From Flavobacteriaceae bacterium (GTDB lineage Bacteria; Bacteroidota; Bacteroidia; Flavobacteriales; Flavobacteriaceae): 42,628 nt of DNA. Positions 27,422 to 34,150 of the stretch are shown piece by piece. A program made the position numbers and the translations under genes. Under the pieces are notes generated by a model, which was given only the letters and a program-made list of their open reading frames with translations, was not told where the DNA came from and did no database searches. Location: the NCBI GenBank assembly GCA_027080135.1, contig JALWUJ010000133.1:1-42628 (forward strand), read 5' to 3'. Within the stretch, counting starts at the first letter, position 1. Each line of letters begins with the position of its first letter.

Positions 27422-28069
27422 TTAGTTTTTACCACCCATTGCAGTTAACATTCCGCCATAAACTCCATTTAATGAAGAAAGGTTACTTGCTAAATGCTCC
27501 ATTTGTTGTTTTAATTGTTCAGCATTTTCAACTACTTGAGAATTTACTTCTGCTTGACGGCTAGTAGATTCTACTTGAACTTTATATAAGTTGTTTAAAG
27601 ATTCCATTTGAGCTGCAGCCAATGCCATTTCTTCACTATATTTTTTAGTTGAATTCATCGCTTCTGCAGTTGGCGCCATACTTTTTGTTGCTCCTTCAAA
27701 AGACTTAATACTTTCAGTAAGACTTCCCATTAATTCAGAGTCGATACGTGCATCTTTAAGCATCTCATCTAATTTTTTTGATAGTAATCCTTGTGCATCT
27801 TGAGGTTCCTCTTTCTTTTTATCTTTCCCCATACCTCCAGCAAGTTCTGGATAAACCAATGACCAATCTAAATCGTCATCTACAGGTTCAAAAGCTGAAA
27901 TCGCGAAAATAACTGCTTCTGTAATAAGACCAATTGCCAATAAAATACCTCCGTTTAAGGGACCTAACTCCCAATGAAGAATTTTAAAAAGTGCTCCAAT
28001 AATTACTACTGATGCTCCAAGACCATAAGCCATGTTAAATAATTTCTTTGTTGATTTTGATTGTGCCAT
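27422..28069 (-). CDS. gldL: Gliding motility / T9SS motor protein GldL
   Basis: 215 residues with two membrane helices (about 14-30 and 38-60) and a long cytoplasmic coiled-coil tail rich in Glu, Met and Ala. Polar residues within the membrane, Lys29 and Glu51, with Tyr15 and His32, match with an offset of two the buried residues reported as important for proton coupling in F. johnsoniae GldL. It forms the stator around the GldM helices. It lies 48 bp before gldM in the operon. Confidence 0.97.
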   Translation of the reverse strand: MAQSKSTKKLFNMAYGLGASVVIIGALFKILHWELGPLNGGILLAIGLITEAVIFAISAFEPVDDDLDWSLVYPELAGGMGKDKKKEEPQDAQGLLSKKLDEMLKDARIDSELMGSLTESIKSFEGATKSMAPTAEAMNSTKKYSEEMALAAAQMESLNNLYKVQVESTSRQAEVNSQVVENAEQLKQQMEHLASNLSSLNGVYGGMLTAMGGKN

Positions 28070-28125: not shown

Positions 28126-29499
28126 TTATCTAGCGTCTCCAAAATTTTGGTTTAAGGTAACATCTGTTCCCATATAATCTTGTACTGTTCTAAAACCAAT
28201 ATAGCTTCTTGCAGAGTCTGCATATTCGTAATCTCTTGAACTTACTTGTAAGAAATATGCTATATCTTTCCAAGATCCTCCACGTACAACTTTACGTAAA
28301 TTATTAGGATCATTTACATTTGGGTTCATATTTGAAGAAAAATCATATGATGATGGTTCATAAGAAGAATCTACCCATTCTGAAACATTACCTGCCATAT
28401 TGTAAAGGTTATAATCATTAGGTTCATATGATTTTGCCTCAACAGTATATAGAGCTTGATCTGCCGCATAATCTCCACGCAAAGGTTTAAAGTTTGCCAT
28501 AAAACAACCTCTATCATTTTTAATATATGGACCTCCCCAAGGGTAGGTTGCAGATTGCAAACCTCCACGAGCTGCATATTCCCATTCAGCTTCACTAGGT
28601 AGTCTAAATGAGTTTACAAATTGACGTTTTCTTGATTTTTGGTAAGCATTTTTATATAATGTTCTCCAAGCAGTAAAAGCTTTTGCTTGGTGCCAGTTTA
28701 CACCTACAACTGGATATTCTCCATAAGCTTGATGCCAAAAATAATCGTTATGCATAGGCTCATTATAAGAGTAGTTATAATCTTTTATCCAAACAGTTGT
28801 ATCTGGATAAATCATTAATTCTTCTTTTTTCAAAAAGTCTTTTCTTCTTTTACTACCATCTTTAGCAGCAGATTGCATATCCATATAGGTGTACTGAAAT
28901 TTTAATTTCGTAACATCTATAGTTCTTTGGCCGTTATAAGCTTCTTCTGCAGGAATGTACATGGTATCCATTACCTCGCTATAATATTCGTCTGGATATT
29001 CTGCGGTATCCCAAATTAAATCAACTTTATCGTTAATTTTTCTTCCTTCATAATAATCATCACCCATTCCAAAATAGTTATCATACATATATTGGTCATA
29101 AGGAGACATTTCTTCATTTTCCTGATCTACAAAAGCATATTCGCCAATCCCACCGTCTCCTGGTGTTGCTCCAACCTCATCAGCTAAAATGGCTAACCTT
29201 AAACGAACTATTGAGTCGCGAACCCAATAAACAAATTGCCGATACTCAGCATTTGTTATTTCGGTTTCGTCCATGTAAAAAGATCGTACGGTAACGGTTT
29301 TTGTGGGTGCGTCATTAACAGCAACGAAGTCGTCGTCTGCTTTTCCCATTATAAAAGATCCTCCAGGAACTAGGGTCATTCCGTAAGGTTTTTCTGGGTG
29401 CCATGCTTTTCCTTTTGTTCCAACTAGTTCTCCTCTGTCTCCAGAGTTACAACTGTATAACATGGCAATAATCGCAGTAAATGCAATAAGCTTTTTCAT
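28126..29499 (-). CDS. gldK: Gliding motility / T9SS lipoprotein GldK
   Basis: 457 residues. The signal ends in the lipobox MLYSC (acylated Cys17). The body is a formylglycine-generating-enzyme-like (sulfatase-modifying factor) fold: GGSFIMGKADDDF and MDETEITNAEYRQFVYWV early, VVGVNWHQAKAFTAW and RLPSEAEWEYAARGG in the middle, VVRGGSWKD and YIGFRTVQ at the end. In GldK this fold is structural, forming the outer-membrane-attached ring with GldN, and no oxidase activity is expected. It is first in gldKLMN. Confidence 0.97.
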   Translation of the reverse strand: MKKLIAFTAIIAMLYSCNSGDRGELVGTKGKAWHPEKPYGMTLVPGGSFIMGKADDDFVAVNDAPTKTVTVRSFYMDETEITNAEYRQFVYWVRDSIVRLRLAILADEVGATPGDGGIGEYAFVDQENEEMSPYDQYMYDNYFGMGDDYYEGRKINDKVDLIWDTAEYPDEYYSEVMDTMYIPAEEAYNGQRTIDVTKLKFQYTYMDMQSAAKDGSKRRKDFLKKEELMIYPDTTVWIKDYNYSYNEPMHNDYFWHQAYGEYPVVGVNWHQAKAFTAWRTLYKNAYQKSRKRQFVNSFRLPSEAEWEYAARGGLQSATYPWGGPYIKNDRGCFMANFKPLRGDYAADQALYTVEAKSYEPNDYNLYNMAGNVSEWVDSSYEPSSYDFSSNMNPNVNDPNNLRKVVRGGSWKDIAYFLQVSSRDYEYADSARSYIGFRTVQDYMGTDVTLNQNFGDAR

Positions 29500-29618: not shown

Positions 29619-30782
29619 TTATAATTCGTTCTTAAGGCGGGCTTTCATCCACCTTTCAGGTATTTCCTGATTACAAGCACTCAAATAATCGCCATAAGTG
29701 CAAGGTAATAACGTATGTCTTTTTAATTTATTATTTACTTCTGAAATAAATGGCAATTCTATCCACCATCTTCCCGTTTTATTGCTTTTTTTAAAGATTA
29801 ATATTTCATCATCAATTGGCACTTTATACACAGTATATAATGCCTCTTTACTAAAATCATCATCTGAAATTCTAAAATTAAAGCCTTCTATAAAATACCA
29901 AAAAATTTGTGCAATTAACATGGCTGCACTTTTCGATTCTGTGAAATTTTTTAATTCATAAACTCCAAATGAAGTTACTCTATTACTAATTCCTGCATAT
30001 CTTGCAATGGCACAAATTTCTCTTCCATCAAATCCGTTTGGACTTTCGCTATTTTTATAACTTAAATCGGCACTTTTTATTGTACCAATATCTAAAATTA
30101 CTAAATCGGCATCTCTTAATATAGGCTCTACTATAGTAATATCTTCTGTTACTTCGCCCAACCGATAGCTATCAAAAAATAACTTATCCATTAAACTTAT
30201 TTCTTCAGGAGAGTTGTAATAAGATTGGTATCCAATATTGCTATAATTAAACAAACTGTAGGGTTTATCTACTATTATTTTTCCAACATAAGACTTGTTG
30301 TTAATTGGTTGGTCTGCATCGCCTAAATCAAATCGGGTATCTACATTTACAATATTAACCATATTTCCTAACACATCGTAAGCACGATATTGAGAATAAG
30401 CTAAATCCTGACTTCCGCCAATTAGCAATGGGGTAATTTTACTTTTTAAAAGGGTTTCAATTACTTTCCTGAATGCAAAATGAGAATCTTGAACTGAATC
30501 TCCTTTTTCTATATCGCCTAAATCTACAATTGTGTGAGACCAATTTCCAGGATAGAGCGAGTACAATGCTTTTCTAATAGCATCAAAATTTAACTCTTCT
30601 CCAATATAATTTATGTCGTTTCGGTTTTCTTTTACTCCAAGAATTGCAAGGGCACCTTCTTTTAATTCTGGAAGTTCCTCTTTGCTACTATGTACAGAAA
30701 TTTGTTTTCCAAGTACACCTTTAGGTAATACTTCTCTATGGGCTAAAACCGATTTTGAAACTGGGGAGAAATATTCTAACAT
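29619..30782 (-). CDS. Arginase/ureohydrolase-fold protein with degenerate metal site
   Basis: 387 residues. The ureohydrolase fold is recognisable from three motif sites, but ligands are lost. The GGDHS motif reads GGSQD (122-126), so the first His is Gln. The DAHxD motif reads DTRFD (148-152), so the second His is Arg. The DxD site reads DIG (231-233), so the second Asp is Gly. Three of six manganese ligands are thus missing and a Mn-dependent hydrolase is unlikely. Automated labels would be formimidoylglutamase or agmatinase. No hut or arginine genes are near. Its ATG overlaps the topA stop (TAATG), so it is coupled to topA, and gldK follows 119 bp downstream. Confidence 0.85.
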   Translation of the reverse strand: MLEYFSPVSKSVLAHREVLPKGVLGKQISVHSSKEELPELKEGALAILGVKENRNDINYIGEELNFDAIRKALYSLYPGNWSHTIVDLGDIEKGDSVQDSHFAFRKVIETLLKSKITPLLIGGSQDLAYSQYRAYDVLGNMVNIVNVDTRFDLGDADQPINNKSYVGKIIVDKPYSLFNYSNIGYQSYYNSPEEISLMDKLFFDSYRLGEVTEDITIVEPILRDADLVILDIGTIKSADLSYKNSESPNGFDGREICAIARYAGISNRVTSFGVYELKNFTESKSAAMLIAQIFWYFIEGFNFRISDDDFSKEALYTVYKVPIDDEILIFKKSNKTGRWWIELPFISEVNNKLKRHTLLPCTYGDYLSACNQEIPERWMKARLKNEL

Positions 30783-33271
30783 TATTTTTTCTTAGCTGCG
30801 GGTCTTTTCTTTTTAACTGTTTTTTTCTTTTTTGGTGTTTTCTTAGCAATAATATCCTTGGCTTGTTCCAAAGTCATTTTTTCTGCTTTTGTGGTTTTTG
30901 GAAGTTCAATTTTTAATTTTCCTTTTATTAAATTGAAACGTCCCCAACGTGCTTTTTCTAATCGAATTCCTTCATCGGTCCAATCGTGAATTAGCTTATC
31001 GATTTCTTTTTGCTTTTTAACTTCAATCAATTCTACAATATCTTCATCTGAAAGATTGTCGAAATCGTATTTTTTATTCACGTTAATAAACATATTATTC
31101 CATTTTATAAATGGTCCAAATCTTCCTGTTCCTTTTTGCACAGGTAAACCTTCGTATTCATAAATGGGTGCATCTGCTTTTCGTTTTTCTTCAATTAAGC
31201 CTACAGCTGTTTCTAAATCTATATCTAACGGATCTGCACCTTTTGGAAGCGAAACAAACTTACCGTCAAATTTTACATAAGGTCCAAACCGACCATTGTT
31301 AACTATCACTTCTTCATCTTCATATATTCCCAAAGATTTTGGTAGTTTGAACAAATCCAATACTTCTTCAAAGGTAACTTGATGTAGTTGTTGGTCGGGG
31401 CGTAAACTTGCAAATATTTTTTCTTCATCGTCTGGAGCCCCAATTTGTGCCATTGGCCCAAAACGCCCTAAACGAACCAATACCGTTTTACCAGACTTTG
31501 GGTCTGTTCCTAAAATACGCTCCCCACTTTCACGATTAGCATTTTCGGTAACATGCTCTATTTGGGGGTGAAATTTTGTGTAGAAATCTTTCAATATTGA
31601 AGTCCAAACCTTTTCTCCTTCAGCTATCCTATCGAAATCTTCTTCAACTTTTGCAGTAAAATTATAGTCGAGTATATTTTTAAAATGTTCTAATAAAAAA
31701 TCACAAACAATCATTCCAATATCGGTTGGAACTAATTTTCCTTTGTCTGAACCAATGATTTCTGTTAGGATAGTTTCCTTTACTTGATTTTTTAAGACAA
31801 GTTGCAGGTATTTTCTCTCCACACCTTCTATAGTACCTTTTTCTACATAATTACGGTTAATTATTGTTGAAATAGTTGGTGCATAAGTAGAAGGCCTTCC
31901 AATTCCTAACTCTTCCATTTGTTTTACTAAAGAAGCTTCGGTATAACGATATGGAGGTCTTGTAAACCTTTGAGTTGCGGTAATATAATTTTTATCTAAA
32001 GTATCTCCTATAGATAATTTAGGCAACATGCCTTCTTGCTCTTCTTCTTCATTATCGGTTCCTTCTAAATACACTTTTAAGAAACCATCAAATTTAATCA
32101 TTTCTCCATTGGCAACAAATTTTTCTGGAACAGTAGAAACATCCACTTTTACATTAGTACGTTCCAATTGAGCATCGCTCATTTGAGAAGCTATGGTACG
32201 TTTCCATATTAGCGAATAAAGTCGTTCCTGATCGTAATCACCATTAATGGTGTGACGCGACATATCTGTAGGGCGGATGGCTTCGTGTGCCTCTTGTGCT
32301 CCTTTGGCTTTACTTTTAAAATTTCTTGGCGAACTGTATTCCTTTCCATATGAATTTTCAATTTCATCCTGTGCCGCTGTTTTTGCATCGTTGGATAGAT
32401 TTACACTATCGGTTCTCATATAAGTAATAAGCCCTGCTTCGTATAATCGTTGAGCCATTGTCATCGTTTTACTTACTGAAAAATACAACTTTCTAGACGC
32501 TTCTTGCTGAAGTGTAGATGTGGTAAAGGGTGGTGCTGGCGATTTTTTTGCTGGCTTTTTTACTAAATCTGAAACCTTATAATTTGCACCTATATTATTT
32601 GCAAGAAACTCTCTTGCTTCTTTTTCGGTTTTAAAATTCTTTGGTAGTTTTGCTTTAAATTTACTTCCGTTTTTGGTTGTAAATTCTGCTACTACTCTAA
32701 AGGATGCTACTGGTGTGAATGCTTCTATCTCACGCTCACGCTCTACAATTAATCTAACAGCAACCGATTGTACCCTCCCTGCCGATAGTCCTCCTTTTAC
32801 TTTTTTCCATAAAACAGGAGAAAGTTCATAACCTACCAATCTGTCTAAAACCCTTCTTGCTTGTTGTGCGTTTACTAGATTATAGTTTATTTTTCTAGGG
32901 TTTTCTATAGCTTTTAATATGGCTGTTTTTGTAATTTCATGAAAAACAATACGTTTGGTATTACTGTCTTCCAATTTTAAATTTTCGGCAAGATGCCAAG
33001 CAATAGCCTCTCCCTCTCGATCCTCATCACTCGCTAACCAAACCGTATCGGCTTTTTTAGCTGCTGCTTTTAAATCTTTCACCAAGCTTTTTTTATCGCT
33101 TGGGACTATATATTTAGGTTTAAAATCTCCTTCCACATCTACACCTAATTCCTTGGAAGGAAGATCGGCTATATGCCCAAAACTTGAAGTTACCTTATAA
33201 TCTTTTCCGAGAAATTTTTCTATGGTTTTTGCTTTCGCTGGTGACTCTACAATCACTAAATTCTTTGCCAT
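30782..33271 (-). CDS. topA: DNA topoisomerase I
   Basis: 829 residues. The Toprim domain (LVIVESPAKAKTIEKFLG, then SDEDREGE at 81-88) supplies the metal site, and catalytic Tyr284 is in GLITYMRTDS. It relaxes negative supercoils by single-strand passage. The C-terminal part has several repeats of the form GRFGPYVKFDGKFVSLPKG in place of the Cys4 zinc ribbons of E. coli TopA; no zinc cysteines are seen. The protein ends in a very basic Lys/Pro tail (KKTPKKKKTVKKKRPAAKKK) that likely binds DNA. It has a good promoter at 33292-33320. Confidence 0.98.
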   Translation of the reverse strand: MAKNLVIVESPAKAKTIEKFLGKDYKVTSSFGHIADLPSKELGVDVEGDFKPKYIVPSDKKSLVKDLKAAAKKADTVWLASDEDREGEAIAWHLAENLKLEDSNTKRIVFHEITKTAILKAIENPRKINYNLVNAQQARRVLDRLVGYELSPVLWKKVKGGLSAGRVQSVAVRLIVEREREIEAFTPVASFRVVAEFTTKNGSKFKAKLPKNFKTEKEAREFLANNIGANYKVSDLVKKPAKKSPAPPFTTSTLQQEASRKLYFSVSKTMTMAQRLYEAGLITYMRTDSVNLSNDAKTAAQDEIENSYGKEYSSPRNFKSKAKGAQEAHEAIRPTDMSRHTINGDYDQERLYSLIWKRTIASQMSDAQLERTNVKVDVSTVPEKFVANGEMIKFDGFLKVYLEGTDNEEEEQEGMLPKLSIGDTLDKNYITATQRFTRPPYRYTEASLVKQMEELGIGRPSTYAPTISTIINRNYVEKGTIEGVERKYLQLVLKNQVKETILTEIIGSDKGKLVPTDIGMIVCDFLLEHFKNILDYNFTAKVEEDFDRIAEGEKVWTSILKDFYTKFHPQIEHVTENANRESGERILGTDPKSGKTVLVRLGRFGPMAQIGAPDDEEKIFASLRPDQQLHQVTFEEVLDLFKLPKSLGIYEDEEVIVNNGRFGPYVKFDGKFVSLPKGADPLDIDLETAVGLIEEKRKADAPIYEYEGLPVQKGTGRFGPFIKWNNMFINVNKKYDFDNLSDEDIVELIEVKKQKEIDKLIHDWTDEGIRLEKARWGRFNLIKGKLKIELPKTTKAEKMTLEQAKDIIAKKTPKKKKTVKKKRPAAKKK

Positions 33272-33358: not shown

Positions 33359-34150
33359 TTAGTTGAGATATTCTGTTGAAAATCTACTTGAAGAATCTTC
33401 CAAATCTTCATTAAAACCAATGGTTTCCTTATAAAAATAATAAATAGGAATATGAACAAAATAAGCTGTAAAAAAAACACCAATAAAGCAAAGTATTACT
33501 CCCAATTGTGCAATCATAGATGACACAATGATTAATCCAAAGACCAACAACCAAAATTTATTTCCGAGTTTAAAGCTGATTGAAACAATATCTGAAACTG
33601 ATAAATTACTATTAAAAGCAAAAACTACAACGATTAATTGTAAGGGAACCATCACATAAAAAATAGGAAAATAACATAATGCTACCGCACCCATTGCAAT
33701 TCCGAATGTAGCTAATGACAACACAAATAGTTTTCCAAAATTCTTCCCTTTCAGAAAATAAAAATAACCTTTGTCATCTTCTGAATTTTCCAAATCTTTC
33801 ACCTTACAAACCTTAAAATAATGTGCTGTAACCCCTAATGAAACCACTTGCGTAATTACTATTAATACAAACACTAAAGCCACGTAAGCAATTATAGTTA
33901 ACAATGGATAATCAAAATTAGGGCGAAAATTTTCTGGACCATCTCCCGATTGTACAGCTTCTATAAAAACTGGAATAAAAGGAATATAAATTATCAATAG
34001 CAAAGGTAAAGTCACCAAAGCCGTCACCAACAAATGTAGAAAACCGTCCATCCACACTTTTTTAAATAAATCGAAACTCTTAGATAATATATCTCCAAAA
34101 TCTGGGGAACTTGCAGTTTCTATTTTCTGAAGTAATTGTTTTTTGTTCAT
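33359..34150 (-). CDS. Polytopic membrane protein, unknown function
   Basis: 263 residues. A soluble N-terminus (MNKKQLLQKIETASSPDFGD) is followed by about five to six hydrophobic helices (around 38-62, 84-110, 142-165, 167-182, 195-215, 218-240), and the chain ends in an acidic-serine tail. It has no transporter or enzyme motif I recognise; it looks like the general DUF975/glycerophosphodiesterase-membrane-domain style of protein. It has its own -7 element and precedes topA on the same strand by 87 bp. Confidence 0.8.
   Translation of the reverse strand: MNKKQLLQKIETASSPDFGDILSKSFDLFKKVWMDGFLHLLVTALVTLPLLLIIYIPFIPVFIEAVQSGDGPENFRPNFDYPLLTIIAYVALVFVLIVITQVVSLGVTAHYFKVCKVKDLENSEDDKGYFYFLKGKNFGKLFVLSLATFGIAMGAVALCYFPIFYVMVPLQLIVVVFAFNSNLSVSDIVSISFKLGNKFWLLVFGLIIVSSMIAQLGVILCFIGVFFTAYFVHIPIYYFYKETIGFNEDLEDSSSRFSTEYLN

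Follow-up and report, generated by a model that had tools for sequence, protein, structure and literature searches.

The DNA examined in this study (hereafter the window: positions 1 to 42,628, forward strand, of contig JALWUJ010000133.1, Flavobacteriaceae bacterium assembly GCA_027080135.1) holds, between the DNA topoisomerase I gene topA and the gliding and type IX secretion system (T9SS) genes gldKLMN, a gene for a protein of the ureohydrolase fold. As judged from its alignments, this gene belongs to a single, ancient family of proteins with that fold in the class Bacteroidia, which is mislabelled as formimidoylglutamase, and in sequence the second of the two metal sites (MnB) is erased across the whole family. 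We think it fairly probable that the family gave up binuclear-metal hydrolysis and now works as a binding or scaffold protein. The first-pass annotation of the window, made from its letters alone, had described an arginase-fold probable pseudoenzyme with three of its six manganese ligands substituted; the observation is confirmed, and across the family it carries more weight than a single sequence could show. The gene, the two parts of its product and the six ligand positions, assigned by alignment, are located as follows.

29619..30782, minus strand: pseudo-ureohydrolase gene, 387 amino acids, no internal stop
29895..30647, minus strand: arginase-fold core, residues 46-296; PF00491 match, model aligned to 2a0m
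29622..29849, minus strand: C-terminal domain, residues about 312-387; four strands and two helices, conserved motif
30408..30410, minus strand: Gln125, MnA histidine position
30339..30341, minus strand: Asp148, bridging ligand retained
30333..30335, minus strand: Arg150, MnB histidine position
30327..30329, minus strand: Asp152, MnA ligand retained
30090..30092, minus strand: Asp231, bridging ligand retained
30084..30086, minus strand: Gly233, MnB aspartate position

The frame is intact, as had been claimed, and its ATG at 30782 has one base in common with the topA stop codon TAA (30784-30782; the junction reads AAATAATG). The end coordinate of 30784 given previously includes that stop codon, and the open reading frame (ORF) itself ends at 30782. 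Membership of the superfamily is indicated by the PF00491 (Arginase) profile, which scores 43 bits against a cut-off of 22 and is, at residues 46-296, the only match in a Pfam scan of the whole protein. The AlphaFold model of the complete protein (predicted template modelling score, pTM, 0.86) has an arginase fold, aligning with Trypanosoma cruzi formiminoglutamase (2a0m) over 269 residues with a Z of 29.4 and a root mean square deviation of 2.6, and formimidoylglutamases top both fold-comparison lists obtained with it. HutG (TIGR01227; Bacillus subtilis 3m1r, T. cruzi 2a0m/4mxr) is, therefore, the closest known protein in both fold and sequence, with the same order of core motifs. However, the window protein reaches only 59.9 bits with the TIGR01227 equivalog model, far below the cut-off of 229.15, and its family further differs from HutG in that no representative has both MnB ligands, in its extra C-terminal domain and in forming its own group in the tree (see below). 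The earlier suspicion that the formimidoylglutamase label hides this protein is thus borne out.

Ligand positions were assigned by aligning the protein with T. cruzi formiminoglutamase sequences for which structures have been solved and with a second PF00491 protein of the same genome, encoded on another contig, which has the canonical ligand set H-D-H-D-D-D. Both alignments agree on the substitutions reported before (Q125, R150, G233): the window protein reads Q125-D148-R150-D152-D231-G233 where the canonical set is H/N-D-H-D-D-D. The rat arginase equivalents of these positions are H101, D124, H126, D128, D232 and D234, respectively. Relatives were gathered from the surveyed genomes and from 80 loci (mostly Flavobacteriaceae, the best of 584) and classed as family or canonical by the C-terminal profile; after ORFs of <200 amino acids were dropped, the 200 and 21 sequences, respectively, were thinned to <80% identity, leaving 118 family representatives and 20 canonical relatives. 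None of the 118 representatives keeps both MnB ligands (His150 and Asp233), whereas all 20 canonical relatives do. Together with the occurrence of the family in 323 of 346 surveyed Bacteroidia genomes, this agrees with the initial description of a conserved, probably non-catalytic ureohydrolase fold next to topA and near gldKLMN, and by the alignments the binuclear site is lost.

The substituted residues are themselves conserved to different degrees. Position 125 is Gln in 95 representatives, His in 13 and Asn in 4, and position 150 is basic in 73 (Arg in 43, Lys in 30), so that the question raised by the first-pass annotation, whether the three replacements are kept, can be answered positively for these two; Gly233, in contrast, is not conserved, being present in only 24/118, and Ser is the commonest residue there (51). 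The aspartates are largely retained (D148 in 112, D152 in 102, D231 in 112), and R207, E219, P220, R223, Y262 and W295 are core residues specific to the family. The change at position 125 alone proves little, because T. cruzi formiminoglutamase and 3 of the 20 canonical relatives carry Asn there, and we rejected Q125 as proof of lost activity on the same ground. The T. cruzi protein (entry titles 4mxr, ‘with Mn2+2’, and 4myn, ‘N114H variant’) is presumably an active enzyme with Asn at this first ligand position. The same Asn was also seen at the first metal-ligand histidine of four canonical-type relatives from other Bacteroidota classes (L167, L169, L170, L172).

An alternative set of metal ligands had been named beforehand as something that would speak against a pseudoenzyme, and in sequence such a set is partly present: an MnA-like quartet Gln/His/Asn-Asp-Asp-Asp is complete in 101/118 representatives (87 with Gln, 12 with His, 2 with Asn). 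Because of this quartet the family protein may have a one-metal site. It could even be a working enzyme that uses a single metal at the MnA half-site on another substrate, a reading with which the retention of Glu276 in 93/118 representatives would agree, as would the Asn at the first ligand position of T. cruzi formiminoglutamase, a protein solved with two Mn. Glu276 occupies what we take to be the position of the guanidinium-binding E277 of arginase. We nevertheless regard such an enzyme as quite unlikely: arginase chemistry needs the bridging hydroxide of two metals, an Arg or Lys stands at the MnB histidine position in the 73 representatives mentioned, and the loci of genome family f5 and most of those of f19 have lost the quartet and kept the gene.

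The loss of the MnB ligands goes together with the C-terminal domain, in that all 20 PF00491 relatives without the domain hold both ligands, although presence of the domain in the family and its absence from these canonical relatives follow from classing by the domain profile. It comprises ~75 residues with the pattern KSxxxGRWW...PCxYxDYxxA...EIPxRW, of which W339 is conserved in 118/118, W340 in 115/118, and C361 and Y366 each in 117/118 representatives. AlphaFold predicts four strands and two helices for it, both within the whole protein and as a piece alone (pTM 0.63). A PDB sequence-profile search with the domain gave nothing at E below 0.7, and its fold search gave no convincing match (best Foldseek E 0.68; best VIA-align Z 3.4 among the Foldseek-ranked chains); a missing PDB match does not establish a new fold. 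Across 247 genomes sampled from the phylum, the module was detected in 58 of the 61 that belong to the class and in none of the 186 from other classes, with a profile that was built partly from these class genomes and with classes counted by row order. Partial matches occurred in 18 of these 186 genomes, all confined to positions 1-63 of the 132 in the profile, i.e., to the arginase core.

Two genome families show how far the core can decay. In f5 the protein has 356-358 amino acids and the ligand positions read N-S-I/V-S-N-D (NSISND or NSVSND) in 5/5 loci, and the gene is kept. Members of f19 have a core that is either decayed or shortened; two of them (L161 and L162, with 277 and 278 amino acids) are without the region of the H101 motif but have the C-terminal domain. 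That domain can be recognised at each of the five f19 loci, all of which were matched through position 383-386 of 388 by a profile from which f19 members had been left out. It is mainly because this decay of the pocket in f5 and f19 leaves the gene and its C-terminal domain in place that we would seek the protein's current function elsewhere than in the former catalytic site.

Selection on the gene is also evident. Against nine same-genus loci, the ratio of nonsynonymous to synonymous substitution (dN/dS) is 0.085-0.134 for the pseudo-ureohydrolase, 0.054-0.076 for topA and 0.031-0.061 for gldK, where dS against the window is at least 0.94 and one gldK value is undefined. As dS is this high, four closer pairs weigh more; these gave 0.048-0.115, 0.038-0.083 and 0.028-0.097, respectively. 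Judging from these ratios, the gene evolves faster than topA and gldK in the same-genus set, with values of the same order as theirs, yet it is clearly constrained and purifying selection is strong. A decaying pseudogene is ruled out by the low dN/dS and by the retention of the gene across the class Bacteroidia. Since dN/dS is low and no representative keeps both MnB ligands, the ligand loss goes beyond chance. In a quick maximum-likelihood tree of 84 rows, one branch parts the family from its canonical relatives with a Shimodaira-Hasegawa-like approximate likelihood ratio test (SH-aLRT) value of 99.

A number of points weigh against a retired hydrolase. In the model, the loops of the pocket (residues about 155-195) score low in the predicted local distance difference test (pLDDT), which makes the geometry of the pocket too uncertain to judge. 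One MnB ligand persists in 10/118 representatives (His150 in 6, Asp233 in 4), and the surviving Q/H/N-D-D-D set with Glu276 could support a one-metal reaction. The alignment of the f19 core is unsure. Finally, the tree calls for caution, as it was computed quickly and contains long branches (those of the canonical paralog from the window genome, L160, L163, L164 and L178).

The binding or scaffold protein that we favour would have arisen by loss of the second metal site (the equivalents of H126 and D234), with a basic residue usually taking the place of the MnB histidine, and hydrolase activity would be absent. The retired pocket may hold a ligand that is not hydrolysed, which we propose because the Glu at the E277 position is so widely kept; alternatively, one metal ion, or a salt bridge, may occupy it. 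The contact that matters, i.e., that with a partner, would be made by the C-terminal domain, as lineages with decayed metal positions or a decayed N-terminal core still keep this domain.

Proteins of this kind are already known as pseudo-arginases, and what is new here is the extra domain and the unusually wide and old distribution. One of them is the arginase-like protein of Trypanosoma brucei (4rhm, 4rhq), which we take to have an arginase fold without the binuclear cluster, and whose R151 presumably occupies the MnB histidine position. The titles of its entries list R151 among the replaced positions, and R150 is its counterpart in the window protein. They also list S149, S153 and S226, so that in this eukaryotic protein the aspartates are lost too, whereas the window protein keeps three aspartates. 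To our knowledge, it has no such C-terminal domain.

A bacterial example is MetCb, described in the available passages of its report as an arginase-family pseudoenzyme retained as the protein-binding partner of the active MetCa (PMC11271267). This metformin hydrolase subunit (MetCb/MfmB; 8ryi, 8snf) is detectable sequence kin of the window protein (8ryi_C, E 1.3e-5). According to the same passages it has five of six ligands replaced and is encoded beside MetCa (PMC11271267); no such partner was seen adjoining the genes of the window family. By analogy, MetCb, as far as the passages describe it, and the T. brucei protein show that an arginase fold can persist without its metal cluster. This same-fold precedent (PMC11271267, in the passages available) also suggests that the window protein could, in the manner of MetCb and MetCa, be the inactive member of a pair with an active ureohydrolase, and the window genome does have one canonical paralog, on another contig. 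No PF00491 paralog was present, however, among the neighbouring genes tested, and 14 of 246 family-bearing class genomes show a single PF00491 match that is weak and, counted irrespective of its place, is best read as the family protein itself, which is suggestive evidence against such pairing (the family-less genome G376 also shows a weak single match, which is something else). We consider this pairing most improbable.

The neighbourhood of the gene in the window consists of the following features.

30782..33271, minus strand: topA, DNA topoisomerase I; its stop overlaps the pseudo-ureohydrolase start by one base
28126..29499, minus strand: gldK, T9SS ring lipoprotein; TIGR03525 602.6 bits against 350
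27422..28069, minus strand: gldL, motor protein; PF22827
25796..27373, minus strand: gldM, motor protein; PF12081, PF21601, PF21602, PF12080
24879..25781, minus strand: gldN; PF19841
24831..24856, minus strand: terminator-like hairpin of 11 pairs just after gldN; consensus scan only

The consensus terminator scan gave no match in the gap between the pseudo-ureohydrolase gene and gldK or at the topA junction; with the hairpin after gldN, this is consistent with one long transcript. Sigma-70-like promoter matches were as numerous as in shuffled sequence. A Bacteroidetes-type promoter pattern matched 8 times in the window against 4.5 expected, with no match between the pseudo-ureohydrolase gene and gldK. 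Because the genes lie on the same strand and no terminator was detected between them, topoisomerase I, this protein and the T9SS/gliding motor are probably co-expressed. Between miaB and topA, at 33359-34150, lies a gene for a 263-amino-acid protein that is hydrophobic by sequence and has no Pfam match at E 0.001; in L015, L023 and L033 the corresponding position holds a run of at least two ORFs that match it. In L020, L192, L199, L204 and L210, gldM is followed by two adjacent gldN-like ORFs.

Gene order was compared in 48 sampled genome families, whose loci derive from best hits and are thus not a random sample, some being cut by contig ends. In at least one locus, topA lies within 1 kb on the same strand in 37 of the 48 families; gldK and gldL are near in 34, topA and gldK/gldL both in 32, and neither in 9. 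The topA/gldKLMN neighbourhood is ancient. The start codon lies no more than 15 nucleotides from the topA stop in 115 of 168 distinct proteins and overlaps it in 36, counted with first-ATG starts over fetched stretches that hold topA on the same strand, mostly from Flavobacteriales. This tight coupling, and the proximity of topA in so many families, could reflect a joint role in DNA topology. Such a topoisomerase-linked function seems very unlikely to us, since topA was not seen within 1 kb in 11/48 families (some of them cut by contig ends) and no DNA-binding family or convincing fold match was found; an adjacent rmuC in genus g39 of f17 (L146, L219) is too little to support it.

The position near the motor genes had suggested a structural or regulatory role to the first-pass annotation, and here the evidence is divided. 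The linkage itself is real, with gldK and gldL near in 34/48 families, and both genes tested that lie between a pseudo-ureohydrolase gene and gldK encode PorP/SprF. Even in f19 the gene stands by genes for a GldJ-like protein and a Mur ligase (L161, 410.4 bits against a GldJ cut-off of 458.2; L164, 403.9 bits), and in L161 also by PorP and a C25 peptidase. These loci (L161:685-11349, L164:6759-12538) place the shortened or decayed f19 gene between the Mur-ligase and GldJ-like pair and an OmpA-domain protein, a different T9SS-gene setting. One could, therefore, think of a dedicated cytoplasmic component or regulator of the T9SS or gliding machinery, encoded in the same operon and docking either to the cytoplasmic face of GldL or to the secretion machinery. 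However, no topA or gldK/L was found near the family gene in f17, f18, f22 and f23, where the tested neighbours are a wide variety of genes (epimerase, rmuC, Phe-tRNA synthetase, peptidase, others). Furthermore, miaB (near in 25/48 families), a sigma-54-type regulator and an LptE-like gene belong to the same neighbourhood, and because these unrelated genes share it, adjacency is weak evidence of function. The mapped neighbours comprise topA, gld genes and others, with no profile search aimed at hut genes.

Co-occurrence of the gene with the motor is equally ambiguous. GldM was found in 338 of the 346 genomes; both GldM and the family occur in 322, GldM only in 16, the family only in 1 and neither in 7, with three genomes assigned by elimination between the two lists. 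A core T9SS component should be present in all motor-bearing genomes and absent where the T9SS is absent. Neither holds, as 16/338 GldM-positive genomes have no family member and one genome, G382, keeps the gene with no GldM or GldN match and no above-cut-off GldK match. The 16 genomes belong to families f24, f25, f26, f79, f86, f121, f127 and f130; in that of f79 (G536) the absence is probably due to a gap in the draft, as the gene is present in its four relatives within f79, and gaps may explain others. No topA or pseudo-ureohydrolase gene was present within the stretch at twelve gldM loci fetched from gene-less genomes, and porP-gldK-gldL-gldM-gldN is intact regardless in 9 of the 12; of the remaining three, two have a gldK-containing long ORF and no recognised porP, and one is cut by a contig end. 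In G382, GldK reached at best 95.5 bits against a cut-off of 350, whereas G040, of the same genus, has GldK, GldM and GldN. Compared by nonsynonymous distances only (dS being saturated), the G382 gene is about as far from two outgroup members (0.369 and 0.359) as that of G040 (0.343 and 0.355). G382 (L219) is thus a natural case of T9SS loss that retains an intact pseudo-ureohydrolase.

The genomes with neither gene are no stronger evidence for a shared function. One of them, G474, is a fragmented assembly in which GldN is present, and five belong to family f25, whose GldM-positive members G409, G564 and G671 also have no family gene, so that the co-absence amounts to one or two events. Fisher's test on the raw table gives p = 1.7e-8 but ignores kinship and counts the GldN-bearing G474 as T9SS-negative, and it was not relied on. 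Gene order was likewise rejected as proof of a T9SS function, being undercut by the GldM-positive genomes without the gene, by G382 and by the families without gld linkage. A role in gliding or type IX secretion is, therefore, unproven: it is gene order that argues for it, and there is real evidence on both sides. Of the role suggested earlier the linkage stands, but the dedicated T9SS component is unlikely in our view.

A 2017 review names, in the passages available, PorX as the sole wholly cytoplasmic T9SS-related protein (PMC5445135). Since it names only PorX, a second cytoplasmic protein related to this system would be news, and the window gene lies in the same porPKLMN/gldKLMN cluster neighbourhood as T9SS components. 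No arginase-fold protein is mentioned in the T9SS literature passages available. Neither did literature pairing gldK, the T9SS or gliding with arginase-type names or topA yield a report on the protein, in a search that covered passages and reached little of the subscription literature, and among Flavobacterium johnsoniae locus tags in the literature nothing was found for the tag adjoining gldK. It is conceivable, if rather improbable, that in most Bacteroidia this protein serves the T9SS/gliding motor as a cytoplasmic partner that has gone unrecognised, in which the emptied pocket would sense a small molecule or a single metal ion and the C-terminal domain would relay that state to the motor or its expression. 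Such a role would explain why, in much of the class, topA lies on one side of the gene and porPKLMN/gldKLMN on the other.

Whichever partner a binding or scaffold protein of this family may have, a gene present in nearly all surveyed Bacteroidia genomes lies hidden behind the name of a catabolic enzyme, for which its sequence gives no support. Correcting the label would end false calls of histidine degradation from the pseudo-ureohydrolase gene and would bring to light a pseudoenzyme that is deeply conserved, has a lineage-specific domain and is encoded at a locus on which many groups work because of gliding and protein secretion.

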